45,609 nucleotides of DNA. Origin: Chloroflexota bacterium (lineage in GTDB: Bacteria > Chloroflexota > Anaerolineae > Anaerolineales > Villigracilaceae). A model generated the notes under the pieces. The model searched no databases, had not been told where the DNA came from, and saw only the letters and a program-made list of their open reading frames with translations. The translations under genes were made by a program, and so were the position numbers. This document shows positions 16,753 through 23,474 of this stretch, one piece after another. Location of the stretch: assembly GCA_021824575.1 (NCBI GenBank), contig JAKAKJ010000082.1, positions 114,211-159,819 of the forward strand, in the 5' to 3' direction. Positions within the stretch are counted from its first letter, which is position 1. Every line of letters begins with the position of its first letter.

Positions 16753-16922
16753 AGAGTTCACCAGCGCAGTATCTCTTTCGAGATGACAGGCGAGTTCAGA
16801 CTTGGTGCGCTCCCGCTGGCGCTTTGAAAGGCTTCCACCTCGCTCTCCCTTCTCGCTGACGGGATGACTTACTACTCCTGCCGTGACTTTTATTGTCGAA
16901 AAATATTTCGACCTGCGTTGTG

Positions 16923-16995
16923 TGGACCCAGGGGGATTCGAACCCCCGACCTTCTCAATGCCATTGAGACGCGCTCCCAACTGCGCTATGGGCCC
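16923..16995 (-). tRNA. tRNA-Ala, anticodon GGC
   Basis: 73-nt cloverleaf: acceptor GGGCCCA / TGGGTCC, D arm AGCGCAGTTGGGAGCGC, anticodon stem TCTCA / TGAGA with loop ATGGCAT (anticodon GGC, codon GCC), T arm GGGGGTTCGAATCCCCC, discriminator A. CCA is not encoded. It is second of two alanine tRNAs on the minus strand. Confidence 0.95.
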
Positions 16996-17002
16996 GGGTT
17001 CC

Positions 17003-17060
17003 AGAAGGCAGTAAGCGGTCCGCAGACGAATGACTGCCTTCTGCTCTCTGCCTACTGTTC
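17003..17060. repeat. Palindromic spacer between the two tRNA-Ala genes
   Basis: AGAAGGCAGT (from about 17003) and ACTGCCTTCT (ending near 17042) are complementary, followed by CTGCCTACTG. Likely another short palindromic repeat or a processing hairpin between the tRNAs. Confidence 0.5.
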
Positions 17061-17136
17061 TGGTGGACCTGAGGGGATTCGAACCCCTGACCTCTTCAGT
17101 GCGATTGAAGCGCGCTCCCAACTGCGCTACAGGCCC
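17061..17136 (-). tRNA. tRNA-Ala, anticodon CGC
   Basis: Cloverleaf with acceptor GGGCCTG / CAGGTCC, D arm AGCGCAGTTGGGAGCGC, anticodon stem CTTCA / TGAAG with loop ATCGCAC (anticodon CGC, codon GCG), T arm AGGGGTTCGAATCCCCT, discriminator A. Here the CCA end is encoded (17063-17061), unlike its neighbour. It is transcribed first in the pair. Confidence 0.95.
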
Positions 17137-17531: not shown

Positions 17532-17936
17532 ATGCTTAAACGGATCGGCTTGTGGATTGACCACAAAAAGTCGCTGATGGTGATCCTCGATGAAAAAAAG
17601 GAGAACATACAAACAATTGAATCAGGGGTTGGAAAACATATCCATTACCGAGGAGCCACGCACACGAAGACGCCATACAGCGCGCAATACCAGCAAGGCG
17701 ACGATCAATTGGATAAGAAGTTTTCGGAACGTCTCAACAGGTTCTATAAGAATATCATTTCCAAAATCCGAGGCGCTGACGCCCTCCTGATCTTTGGCCC
17801 CGGCGAGGCAAAGCTCGAACTTGAAAAACGGCTGGCGCATGAAAAAGTCAGGGTGCAGGATATCCAAATTGAATGCGCCGACAAAATGACGGAACGCCAG
17901 GTCGCTGCAAAAGTCCGAAAACATTTTCGAAGATAA
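17532..17936 (+). CDS. Small eRF1/Pelota-domain-like protein
   Basis: 134 residues. It begins KRIGLWIDHKKSLMVIL and has an ADALLIFGPGEAKLELEKRL core and a C-terminal ECADKMTERQVAAKVRKHF. This pattern matches short bacterial proteins related to archaeo-eukaryotic release-factor domains, often annotated as translational machinery or host-attachment-type proteins. A ribosome-linked role is family-based and unproven here. GGAGG lies 6-10 nt before the ATG and a strong promoter is upstream. It is followed by a hairpin at 17950-17977, so it looks monocistronic. No signal peptide or membrane segment. Confidence 0.65.
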   Translation: MLKRIGLWIDHKKSLMVILDEKKENIQTIESGVGKHIHYRGATHTKTPYSAQYQQGDDQLDKKFSERLNRFYKNIISKIRGADALLIFGPGEAKLELEKRLAHEKVRVQDIQIECADKMTERQVAAKVRKHFRR

Positions 17937-20148: not shown

Positions 20149-20952
20149 ATGTTCGACCTCTCCAACGCGCGCTTCGCCTTCCTCGATCTCGAAACCACCG
20201 GCCTTTCCCCATGGTTCGGTGATCGTATTTGTGAAGTGGGCATTGTTATTACCGAGGGCAGACGCATCAAAGGAACGTATCAGACTCTGGTCAATCCCGA
20301 ACGTCCGCTGTCGCCGGGCGCGGCCAGCATCAATGGTTTATCCGAAGCCGATCTCGAATCAGCGCCGTCTTTTGCAGAACTTGCGAATCGCATCGAAGAA
20401 CAGATCAAAGATGCAGTGGTGATCTGCCACAACTCGAAATTCGATCTGCAATTCCTCGATAGCGAATATCGCCGCATTGGGCGCGATATTCAGATCCCGA
20501 ATTTGATTGATACGTTGATGCTCGCCCGCCAATATTTCAAATTGACATCCTACAGTCTGCATGCCATTGCGGAAGCGTTTCATGTCCCGACGGTGGGCGG
20601 GCGCGGCGCCGAAGCGGACGCGCTCAACGCCCGCGGCATTTTCTTCGCCATGATGGACGCGTTGAAGGAGTTGAACAAACCGCTTGACGATTACATCGGC
20701 ATTTACAATTCTCCCGCCTGGCGCGGTGAAGGCATCCAGCTGCCAATCGAATTAGGCGAAGCGATTTACGGCGGCAAACGCATGTTCATCCGTTATGTGG
20801 ATAAGAATGGCGAGCAAACCGAACGCTGGGTCACGCCGCGCCACGTAATCGGTTTGTCCGATTACATTTATCTTCAAGCCTATTGTCATTTGCGGGAAGC
20901 CGAACGCAGTTTCCGCCTGGATCGAATCGTCCAGGTCCATGTAGAAACATGA
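20149..20952 (+). CDS. DnaQ-type 3'-5' exonuclease fused to a WYL domain
   Basis: 267 residues. Residues 8-170 are a DnaQ-like exonuclease domain: FLDLETTG (Asp13, Glu15), HNSKFD (Asp99), and GAEADALNA (Asp157). The DEDDh histidine, expected five residues before Asp157, is Arg152. Residues about 205-265 form a WYL-type domain (FIRYVDKNGEQTERWVTPR, YLQAYCHLREAERSFRLDRI). WYL domains bind nucleic acids or ligands and occur mostly in regulators of DNA-damage, defence and CRISPR systems. The fusion suggests a nuclease whose activity or targeting is controlled by the WYL part. A TAAGAT at 20119-20124 gives a leader of about 18 nt without Shine-Dalgarno. Confidence 0.85.
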   Translation: MFDLSNARFAFLDLETTGLSPWFGDRICEVGIVITEGRRIKGTYQTLVNPERPLSPGAASINGLSEADLESAPSFAELANRIEEQIKDAVVICHNSKFDLQFLDSEYRRIGRDIQIPNLIDTLMLARQYFKLTSYSLHAIAEAFHVPTVGGRGAEADALNARGIFFAMMDALKELNKPLDDYIGIYNSPAWRGEGIQLPIELGEAIYGGKRMFIRYVDKNGEQTERWVTPRHVIGLSDYIYLQAYCHLREAERSFRLDRIVQVHVET

Positions 20953-20968: not shown

Positions 20969-20997
20969 AAGAGCCTGGCAAATTCCGCCAGGCTCTT
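20969..20997. terminator. Bidirectional terminator
   Basis: Perfect 11-bp stem AAGAGCCTGGC (20969-20979) / GCCAGGCTCTT (20987-20997). On the minus strand it is followed by TTTTTT, so it strongly ends the diguanylate cyclase gene; on the plus strand it is weaker. Confidence 0.9.
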
Positions 20998-21000
20998 GCA

Positions 21001-22446
21001 TCAATCGCCCCTGCGGCGGCGGTAATATTGCCCTTTGTCCTTGTACATCGTATTATCGGCCTGGCTGATAACTTTCTCCAGGGACAGTCCGGGCTGGCTG
21101 GTTGCTGCGCCAAATGAAATACTCAACACAGGCTCACGATAATATTTGTTGTTCAATTCGATCAACAAGTGAAGATGTGATATCAATTCGCTGGCGGTTG
21201 CGCCATCCGCGCCGGGGAGGAGGATGACAAATTCATCACCGCCGATGCGCGCAACCAGGGTGTTTTCTTCAAGGCCGGTTTTCAGAACCTCCGCTGTGCG
21301 CCGGATCAAATTATCCCCGGCCTGATGTCCAGCCGAATCGTTCACCTGCTTTAGACCATTCAGATCAGCGATGATCACGCTGATGGGTTCATGGCGGTCT
21401 TTTTCAAGCTGTAAAAGTGTCTCCTCGAAGTAGGCGCGGTTATACAGCCCGGTCATCACATCGTGCGTGCCAAGATAACGCAAATACTCCTCGGCTTTCT
21501 TGCGCGCAGTGATATCCTGGATGGCAACCAGCACCCACGAGAAATCCTGTTCGTGACCAGGCATCATCCGCCAATCAAGTTGAATGTTGATCGGTTCGCC
21601 TGAAAGTGAATAATTGATCTCCTCCCGTTCATAATTCGTTTTACCGTCCCACATGTCCACAAGCTCATCAATGAAATGATCGCTCATGGCATCGCGAAAG
21701 ACCCGATTGAGGTTCGATAACAATTCTTCCTTGCTTGCAGCTCCAAAAAGCTGGAGCGTTTTGCGGTTCACATCCAGCACGCGGATCAAACCCATGCAAT
21801 GTTCGACTGCTTTTGGATGTTTGACCAGATAGCTGCGAAGATCTTTTACGCCTTGTTCGCGCAGGCCATCAAAATATGACTTGAGTTCGCTGTAATCTTC
21901 CTCCCAAAGCGAAATGGGAGCATATTCGAACAAATTACGCAGCCGGTCTTCGCTGACGGCCAAAGCGCGCTCCGCCTGTTTGCGGGCGGTAATATCTTCC
22001 AGCGTAACAAGCACGCGGCCAAATGTTTCTTCGTAGCCCGGCAAGATGCGCCAGTGAAGACGGATGTCAAGCGGCTCGCCGCGCAGCGTGTAGTTGACCC
22101 CCTCACCAGACCAGGTCAAGGCTCCTTGCCACAGGGCAAGCAGCTCGTCCTGAAAATGGGCGCGCATTTCATCGCGAAAGACCTCGCTGAGATGAGCGAT
22201 CAATTCCTCCCGTGACGCAGCGCCGAACGTTTCAAGGGTCTGATGATTGACGTCAATGATTTTGATGCGCCCCATAACAGATTCGACTTCCGCCGGATGC
22301 TCTTCGAGATAACGCGTCAAATCTGCGACGCCCCGTTTACGCAGGCCGTCAAAGAAATTTTTTATTCCGCTGAAATCCTCTTCCCAAAGCGAAATGGGCG
22401 CATGCTCGAATAACATGGAAAAATGACCTTCATCCTGACTTGGCAT
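21001..22446 (-). CDS. Diguanylate cyclase with two duplicated PAS-like sensor modules
   Basis: 481 residues. Two homologous modules stand in tandem. Each begins LFEHAPISLWEED or LFEYAPISLWEED, contains FFDGLRKRGV or YFDGLREQGV, and ends in EDITARKQAE or QDITARKKAE. The C-terminal GGDEF domain has the intact ARIGGDEF motif and should make cyclic di-GMP; the upstream RxxD inhibition site is absent (EENT). No membrane helix, so cytoplasmic. Start 22446 is chosen because GGAG lies 6 nt upstream; the longer frame to 22542 would run through the neighbouring terminator. Confidence 0.88.
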   Translation of the reverse strand: MPSQDEGHFSMLFEHAPISLWEEDFSGIKNFFDGLRKRGVADLTRYLEEHPAEVESVMGRIKIIDVNHQTLETFGAASREELIAHLSEVFRDEMRAHFQDELLALWQGALTWSGEGVNYTLRGEPLDIRLHWRILPGYEETFGRVLVTLEDITARKQAERALAVSEDRLRNLFEYAPISLWEEDYSELKSYFDGLREQGVKDLRSYLVKHPKAVEHCMGLIRVLDVNRKTLQLFGAASKEELLSNLNRVFRDAMSDHFIDELVDMWDGKTNYEREEINYSLSGEPINIQLDWRMMPGHEQDFSWVLVAIQDITARKKAEEYLRYLGTHDVMTGLYNRAYFEETLLQLEKDRHEPISVIIADLNGLKQVNDSAGHQAGDNLIRRTAEVLKTGLEENTLVARIGGDEFVILLPGADGATASELISHLHLLIELNNKYYREPVLSISFGAATSQPGLSLEKVISQADNTMYKDKGQYYRRRRGD

Positions 22447-22490
22447 TCGATTCTCCGCAAGACTGCCTGGCCCCATTATACGCGCAAACA

Positions 22491-22520
22491 AAAATGAGAT
22501 GGCAAAAGCCATCTCATTTT
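22491..22520 (-). terminator. Terminator of the ABC efflux operon
   Basis: Perfect 13-bp stem AAAATGAGATGGC (22491-22503) / GCCATCTCATTTT (22508-22520), AAAA loop, and on the minus strand a following TTTTTGTTT. Confidence 0.9.
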
Positions 22521-22538
22521 GAATTCCGTACGTTCGTC

Positions 22539-23474
22539 TCAACTGGAATGTGCAAGGAGCGTGAACACATCTTCCAGCGTTGACTCGACGGTCTCGATGG
22601 ACTGGACAGTGATGCCGCTGCCGGCCAATTTTTCAGAAAGACGTTCGGGAGTCCATTCGCCGGGCTTGACGATGACGTGCGCACGGTCTCCGTGGAGGCT
22701 TGCTTGTGCGATCCCCTCCGTCCCGCTCAGCAATTCGACGGCTTCGAGAAGGGGCGTGGCCGCAAGGTCCCATGCCGCGCCTTGGAGATACGTTGACTTT
22801 AATCCGGCAGGCGTGTCCAATGCAAGCAGTTTGCTGCGATACATAAAGGCGACGCGCGTGCAGTGTTCGGCTTCATCCATGTAATGCGTCGTGATGAAAA
22901 TGGTTGTGCCTTCGGATGCCAGTCGGTAGATCAAATCCCAGAATTCGCGGCGCGCCACCGGGTCCACGCCGCTGGTTGGCTCGTCCAAAAACAAAAGCGG
23001 CGGTTTGTGGATCAGCGCGCAGCCGAGCGCCAAGCGCTGCCGCCATCCACCGGAGAGGTCGCGCGTGAAGGTGCTTGTGCGATTCTCCAAACCAGCCATA
23101 CGCAGAACTTCATTGATGCGGCCTGTCTCTTCAGATTGGGGCACATCATAAACGCCAGCGTAGAATTGCAGATTCTCCAAAACTGTCAGATCATCATACA
23201 AGGCGAATTTTTGTGACATGTATCCGATATGCGGTTTGACCGCTTCAGGATTCTTCGTCACGTCAATGCCCAGAATGCTGGCTGTTCCTTCGGTTGGTTT
23301 AATCAATCCGCACAACATGCGGATGGTTGTCGTCTTCCCGCTGCCGTTCGGTCCCAAATACCCAAGCACTTCTCCGGGCTGCACAGTAAATGTCACATGA
23401 TCAACAGCCGTAAAATCGCCGAACTTTCTTGTCAGCCCCTGAACATCAAGCAGCGGAGTGGATTGGTTTTCCAT
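22539..23474 (-). CDS. ABC transporter ATPase, ABC-2 type efflux (second ATPase)
   Basis: 311 residues. Walker A GPNGSGKTT, Q-loop MSQKF, signature LSGGWRQR, Walker B LLFLDEPTSGVDP and switch His in TTHYMDEA are all intact, so it should hydrolyse ATP. The DrrA/YbhF-like C-terminal region follows. The start at 23474 is chosen because GGAAGG lies 8 nt upstream; it overlaps the preceding ATPase gene by 29 nt. Together the two ATPases look like the two halves of a YbhF-type protein split into separate genes, energising the permease at 25940. Confidence 0.88.
   Translation of the reverse strand: MENQSTPLLDVQGLTRKFGDFTAVDHVTFTVQPGEVLGYLGPNGSGKTTTIRMLCGLIKPTEGTASILGIDVTKNPEAVKPHIGYMSQKFALYDDLTVLENLQFYAGVYDVPQSEETGRINEVLRMAGLENRTSTFTRDLSGGWRQRLALGCALIHKPPLLFLDEPTSGVDPVARREFWDLIYRLASEGTTIFITTHYMDEAEHCTRVAFMYRSKLLALDTPAGLKSTYLQGAAWDLAATPLLEAVELLSGTEGIAQASLHGDRAHVIVKPGEWTPERLSEKLAGSGITVQSIETVESTLEDVFTLLAHSS

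Follow-up and report, generated by a model that had tools for sequence, protein, structure and literature searches.

Enzymes joined to WYL domains have been described before, and among the partners with which these domains are reported to combine are 3'→5' exoRNases (Makarova et al., 2014; PMC4012209). When fused to the Pif1 helicase, the WYL domain has been reported to be a module that binds single-stranded DNA (ssDNA) (PMC9964779), and in PafB the residues R181, Y196, R204, R208, R211, and R214 are reported to be needed for ssDNA binding (PMC11804915). From the side of the nuclease, the closest precedents are eukaryotic pseudonucleases of the DEDDh fold that are reported to bind nucleic acid, namely Exuperantia (PMC5597691) and PML-1 PXL (PMC12934764).

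The protein described here is encoded in a 45,609-nucleotide stretch of a Chloroflexota contig (the window in what follows) and joins an N-terminal DnaQ exonuclease directly to a C-terminal WYL domain (Table 1). This architecture, and the acidic motifs Asp13/Glu15, Asp99, and Asp157, had been claimed in a sequence-only reading of the window and both hold: RNase_T (E 3.2e-27, residues 11–161, above its curated cut-off) and WYL (PF13280; E 4.9e-14, 52.5 bits against a cut-off of 21.8, residues 202–265) were recovered by Pfam, the predicted folds agree with them, and all of the acidic residues are present. A profile search with residues 195–267 alone also returned WYL (E 4.9e-15), in a match of ~64 residues where 60 had been proposed. 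Among the best 25 of 32 NCBIfam matches, the nuclease part is nearest to the DinG-associated, Pol III epsilon, and PolC exonuclease models, and TIGR00573 ("dnaq") is the only one of those listed that passed its cut-off (83.3 against 71.5 bits). No helix-turn-helix (HTH) domain appears among the Pfam and NCBIfam matches listed for the protein, the N-terminus being the exonuclease domain itself.

Table 1. Features of the exonuclease–WYL locus (positions in the window).
Feature	Position	Strand	Evidence
CDS, 267 aa, DnaQ-type (DEDDh-derived) exonuclease domain and C-terminal WYL domain	20149..20952	+	Pfam, orthologues
RNase_T exonuclease domain (residues 11-161), with D13, E15, D99, and D157	20179..20631	+	Pfam; fold resembling Pol III epsilon and DinG
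CGC codon for Arg152, in place of the DEDDh histidine (L004 has CAC, His)	20602..20604	+	Alignment, codons
Helix end and linker, residues 163-201, conserved 'DDYIGIYNSPAW'	20635..20751	+	Alignment of 34 sequences
WYL domain, residues 202-265; R226, Y241, R249, R253, R256, R259 match PafB ssDNA-binding residues	20752..20943	+	Pfam, alignment, fold
Probable bidirectional terminator, inverted repeat GAGCCTGGC...GCCAGGCTC separating convergent genes	20969..20996	.	By eye, unscored

The full-length AlphaFold2 model (pLDDT 88, pTM 0.79) has its lowest confidence at linker residues 191–200 (mean pLDDT 64). Its exonuclease part is matched by PolC (9qpc, Z 23.6), E. coli Pol III epsilon (2gui, Z 23.2, rmsd 1.6 over 164 aligned residues), and DinG (9ii8, Z 22.9), and further matches include the CBASS exonuclease Cap18 (7t2s, Z 18.8) and the RNA-acting DEDDh proteins 3'hExo, ERI, and CRN-4. 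The WYL part also folds when modeled alone (pLDDT 89), with WYL proteins as its best matches, in agreement with the domain call of the sequence-only reading: the best 12 fold rows are BrxR, CapW, PafBC, and DriD (Z from 11.7 to 9.2; 7qfz, Z 11.7 over 73 aligned residues, Sm-like fold), and Hfq follows closely (Z 9.1). The proximity of Hfq and the presence of RNA-acting nucleases would suit an RNA-directed protein, either a 3'-5' exoribonuclease or an RNA binder with the Sm-like WYL holding RNA, as would the name "3'->5' exoRNase" given to such fusions (Makarova et al., 2014; PMC4012209) and the reported stimulation of Cas13d RNA cleavage by WYL proteins (PMC6789036). However, the nearest relatives in both sequence and fold are the DNA enzymes Pol III epsilon, PolC, and DinG, and those WYL structures that are named in the fold list have ssDNA as their ligand (from the titles of CapW and DriD, and PafBC), and we consider a role on RNA improbable.

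At the position of the catalytic histidine, five residues before the last Asp (D157), the window protein has Arg152, as first noticed from the sequence. In the alignment of homologues around this residue, no nearby His aligns with the DEDDh position, and the column contains His in 116 of 163 rows. The closest relatives (L003/L042, 91% identical) read GRGAEADALNAR, with Arg like the window, and the next ones (L004/L043, 75–76% identical) read GHGAQEDALNAR, with His in the same column ("NGHGAQEDALN" in L004/L043 against "GGRGAEADALN"). An alignment shift concealing the histidine is ruled out by these two pairs and by the 163-row column. The window codon is shared by L003, and a sequencing error is unlikely since Arg is found in two genomes. 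The site therefore has the four carboxylates of a DEDDh enzyme (D13, E15, D99, and D157) with Arg152 in place of the catalytic His. DEDDy exonucleases have instead a Tyr four residues before the last Asp; residue 153 is Gly in the window protein and R, H, Q, G, or S across 162 rows, never Tyr. In having lost a catalytic residue and kept the fold, the protein resembles the DEDD pseudonucleases Exuperantia and PXL. Two nearby histidines were considered as compensating residues and discarded: His145 is found in intact as well as damaged proteins and varies (with 14 changes in the Ser clade and nine in the intact rows, see below), and His153 is found in six rows only, a minority within the Ser clade.

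Judged by sequence matches, the WYL–exonuclease fusion forms a family that is widespread in Chloroflexota. At E ≤ 1e-77, matches, almost all of them full length, were found in 72 of 150 genomes of the taxonomic family of the window, and the same search of a wider contig collection gave 39 loci, all of them from Chloroflexi groups and mostly Anaerolineales. A profile of 34 sequences matched 85 of 396 genomes of the class at E ≤ 1e-30 (14 of these in the family of the window); outside the class, 32 genomes had long matches and 202 of 400 matched at E ≤ 1e-20, the weaker matches listed covering the exonuclease part only or nearly so. The 89 rows fetched from outside the family correspond to 60 of the 71 non-family class matches and 29 of the 32 long matches outside the class; the remaining 11 class genomes scored under 170 bits, several of them partial, and the other three (G559, G755, and G767) are each congeneric with a fetched genome. 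In all 89, the profile match extends over the exonuclease region and the WYL region (the N-terminus of L201, D13/E15 included, is masked), and the five scanned by Pfam (L114, L150, L177, L187, and L202) have RNase_T and WYL above cut-off. What we call family rows are those from family-level genomes plus the contig-collection matches, four of which (L022, L036, L037, and L041) have no identical copy in the fetched family genomes; L041 ends before residue 152, and the rows exclude L002, which is a distinct DnaQ-like protein.

WYL–exonuclease fusions may also exist outside Chloroflexota. Phage records gave 136 matches at E ≤ 1e-5 (four covering at least 80% of the query) and plasmid records 1230 (five covering at least 80%). 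Among the four of these nine long matches that were examined, Pfam found no WYL in L203 (whole gene) or L204 (matched stretch only); of the long matches, H18 consists of two separate genes and H21 is annotated as a TerD family protein. The 58 pattern matches in viral contigs yielded no confirmed relative. The genome of the window (3.6 Mb, 98% complete) encodes two RNase_T proteins, the other being L002, with a DEDDh motif that looks intact by eye, and gives a single WYL match, the one in the fusion gene; no PafBC- or DriD-like WYL regulator was found in it.

The active site was scored at positions 13/15/99/152/157. Outside the family, D-E-D-H-D is present in 88 of 88 readable rows, the masked 89th reading X-X-D-H-D, and we take this state as ancestral since all readable outside rows are intact. 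His152 is found in all 89 outside rows and in 27 of 73 inside. The 74 distinct family rows comprise 41 DEDSD, one partial --DSD, 22 DEDHD, five DEDHG, two DEDRD (the window and L003), two DKDRD, and one truncated, so that the site is changed in 51 of the 73 family rows readable at 152 (42 Ser, two Arg, two Lys15 plus Arg, and five Gly157). The five Gly157 rows (L044, L045, L050, L051, and L054) form a clade that has kept His152 and carries Asp157Gly instead. The most damaged site seen in the family is that of L035 (2182–2985) and L036 (1040–1843), with Glu15Lys plus His152Arg and the WYL residues intact.

How many times the site was lost depends on the tree. At least two separate losses are needed because the Gly157 clade keeps His152. 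In trait-free trees there are four changes among complete states and three changes of His itself, and the first tree, built on all columns and with the partial row as a state of its own, gives five; the strongly supported branches force two changes of the intact label in the trait-free trees and three in the first tree, many inner branches being weak. A topology in which the Ser and window clades group together to the exclusion of L004 was not rejected (p-AU 0.266), and one with all Ser and Arg rows in a single clade fell just short of rejection (p-AU 0.058). The codons are TCN in 42 of 42 Ser-clade rows, CGG in L035/L036, and GGC at 157 in the Gly clade; separate routes to Ser and Arg fit with this, since the Ser clade uses only TCN and never AGY, which is one step from CGC. 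From these phylogenetic results, four losses are our best estimate and two the safe minimum. Two residues before Asp99, residue 97 (20437–20439) is basic in 47 of 51 damaged and two of 22 intact family rows and in three of 89 outside, a distribution that includes only two supported independent pairs, with which a sign test is unable to reach significance, so that the association is no more than a lead.

The changed genes do not appear to be relics. Median omega (NG86) for the exonuclease domain was 0.148 in the Ser clade (227 pairs), 0.12 in the intact rows (33 pairs), 0.091 in the Gly clade (10 pairs), and 0.097 and 0.118 in the Arg clades (the first being that of the window, one pair each), with 0.05–0.16 for the WYL domain. 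As read from these ratios, the gene is under continued purifying selection, with no decay, although the Ser clade lies slightly above the intact rows. A decaying gene or pseudogene would account for the patchy presence within the family and for some broken copies (G109, split over two frames with a stop; G065 and G114, fragments only; and the truncated L041), but elsewhere the frame is open and of nearly constant length, omega is ~0.1–0.15 in the lineages with lost residues, and the WYL core is nearly invariant, which makes this explanation very improbable. We reject pseudogene status for the clade of the window.

The largest clade has a D-E-D-D-Ser site with Glu29 replaced by Gln. Within its 42 rows (tree length 6.0) there are no changes at D13, E15, H94, N95, D99, D157, or Ser152, nor at the six WYL residues, with a mean of 4.57 changes per exonuclease site and 48 of 158 exonuclease sites without change. 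Among the positions at least 90% conserved in the intact plus outside rows, only H152 (now S) and E29 (now Q) fall below 60% in this clade, and E29Q has become fixed along with Ser152 (41 of 42 rows, with one gap). From this pattern, the active site of the Ser clade looks remodelled and held, rather than eroding. The Arg152 clade of the window consists of two sequences, to which the constraint figures of the Ser clade do not carry over.

Such a pattern could also be that of an exonuclease that is still active, slower or differently specific ("DEDDs/DEDDr"), in which Arg152 or Ser152 is tolerated and water is activated by the metal or by another residue. Consistent with this are the four carboxylates kept in the window protein and the Ser clade, the low omega, and above all the invariant Ser152 (42 of 42) with E29Q fixed alongside, which has the look of remodelling and not of drift. 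Against it, related lineages without D157 or E15 persist under constraint, and the loss of either residue should cripple two-metal catalysis. We regard retained activity as rather unlikely, although it is the main rival of a protein that only binds ends because the carboxylates remain.

The second half of the protein points to the ligand. R226, Y241, R249, R253, R256, and R259 have the same spacing as the PafB set, and all six coincide in an ungapped but weak (-0.7 bit) HMMER alignment to the PafB half of the A. aurescens PafBC (6sj9); R201/R204 of PafC align with R256/R259 of the window protein (HMMER). The full set is carried by 73 of 73 family rows, intact members included, and so does not distinguish the damaged ones. 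Outside the family, all six residues occur together in only 40 of 89 rows, and ssDNA binding by the WYL domain may therefore not be ancestral. On these conserved residues, ssDNA is the best-supported WYL ligand in the family of the window and a less sure one for the distant relatives; none of the results suggests a cyclic nucleotide. Many of the rows L183–L201, Chloroflexota from outside the class, have an intact DEDDh and changed WYL residues at 256/259 (e.g., A, L, or V; K or N), the opposite trade to that seen in the family of the window.

The surroundings of the gene were compared in the 145 of 163 loci where a custom ORF caller recovered it as an ORF. In the window, its neighbors are an adenosine deaminase-like protein and an NHL-repeat protein ending 60 bp upstream on the same strand, and downstream, on the opposite strand, a PAS-GGDEF protein and ABC transporter genes. 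The next upstream gene in nine loci and the second upstream gene in five are presumably rnhB and rplS, respectively, from their resemblance by eye. The GGDEF protein (21001–22542, minus strand) has two PAS-like stretches, each with "FEYAPISLWEEDxS", and relatives of it accompany the exonuclease gene at ~10 of the 145 loci (as two clusters, five each). A 134-aa protein at 17532–17936 (plus strand) scores 20.5 bits with baeRF_family5, below the cut-off of 27 bits, and proteins resembling it by eye are near five of the 145 loci. Two tRNA-Ala genes, with anticodons GGC and CGC, are located at 16922–17136 (minus strand) and are the probable source of the repeated "GxRTPDL/RSQLRY" peptides among the spurious ORFs of that stretch.

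From the WYL domain, the sequence-only reading had drawn a connection with transcription regulators and with defence or CRISPR accessory proteins, for which we found no backing: there is no HTH among the matches listed, no conserved defence neighbor, and no Cas1 found in the genome of the window. A nuclease gated by nucleotides or oligonucleotides, or a regulator, in a defence system (CRISPR, CBASS, or BREX-like) would be in keeping with the frequent presence of WYL domains in defence systems, with BrxR and CapW as top fold matches of the WYL part and Cap18 among those of the nuclease, and with PADLOC, in which the DEDDh and WYL models match the window protein and the nuclease part best matches two candidate-defence models, PDC-S48 (145 and 111 bits, against 96.5 for Pfam RNase_T). 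However, these two matches extend only over positions 4–172 of 411 and 14–152 of 512 of the models, no neighbor family recurs at more than 22 of the 145 loci, and none of the 30 neighbor families listed looks defence-like by eye. Within the window, the seven proteins scanned gave as sole defence-like label a generic AAA_21 cross-match of an ABC transporter ATPase, and the viral-contig matches described above also argue against such a role, which we consider slightly less probable still than one on RNA.

Taking this evidence together, we infer a substrate, a loss of activity, and a cellular role for the window protein. The root of the family would be a stand-alone DnaQ-like DEDDh 3'-5' exonuclease with the C-terminal WYL as a built-in ssDNA clamp. 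In the intact form, the ssDNA would be gripped by WYL as the two-metal site shortened it from the 3' end. In the lineage of the window, with the general-base His replaced by Arg152, the protein would still bind metal and ssDNA or 3' ends, its cutting being lost or very slow; slow cleavage would be possible because all the carboxylates are kept. The window protein might then take part in DNA repair by binding ends or protecting them. We put the chances of this reading, a non-cutting or very slow binder of ssDNA and 3' ends derived from a DEDDh exonuclease with a WYL ssDNA clamp, at about even.

Two functions had been proposed for the fusion at the outset, a ligand-gated nuclease or a dead nuclease fold that binds ends. 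The second is favored by the catalytic losses in several lineages, which have kept the fold, the WYL ssDNA set, and the majority of the metal ligands. The first is weakened for the window copy, as the general base is missing, and could still hold for the relatives with an intact DEDDh. At the level of the family, a DEDDh exonuclease may have been disarmed repeatedly into a bacterial sensor or protector of ssDNA ends, in at least two and probably four events within one taxonomic family (H152S, H152R, D157G, and E15K plus H152R), with the WYL residues invariant and the Ser form constrained; we hold this wider proposal more tentatively, at somewhat under even chances.

Compared with known systems, the window protein shares with the DnaQ, PolC, and DinG exonuclease domains the fold (Z 22–24), TIGR00573, and the four carboxylates, and differs from them by the change of His to Arg and by standing alone with WYL, without helicase or polymerase. 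Exuperantia and PML-1 PXL also have a DEDDh-like fold with catalytic residues lost, reported single-stranded nucleic acid binding, and a second (SAM-like) domain (PMC5597691; PMC12934764), but they are eukaryotic, and here the carboxylates are largely kept, none of the four being lost in the window copy and at most one in its damaged relatives. PafBC and DriD resemble the window protein in the ssDNA-binding arginines of WYL, plus the tyrosine in PafB, although they are winged-HTH transcription factors. As the sole WYL found in its genome, the fusion would make a candidate sensor of ssDNA or DNA damage in Chloroflexota that is not a transcription factor. Pif1 with a C-terminal WYL (TePif1 and DdPif1) is likewise a DNA enzyme followed by a WYL reported to bind ssDNA, and R491/495/498/501 of DdPif1 have the 4-3-3 arginine spacing of the window WYL; these are, however, helicases of thermophiles and not nucleases, with no loss of catalysis in what that source reports of them (PMC9964779). 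The fusions of Makarova et al. (2014; PMC4012209) are a domain pairing of the same kind, treated there in one sentence as predicted ligand sensors of defence, a sentence that comes without analysis of taxa, active sites, or ssDNA. A limited open-licence literature gave no prior description of the family of the window or of its active-site loss. The domain pairing is thus not new in kind, while the loss of the active site looks new. Different catalytic residues lost within one orthologous family amount to a natural experiment that asks if an exonuclease fold can persist purely as a binding module, and the intact and damaged relatives, at ~60–76% identity to the window protein, permit a side-by-side assay.
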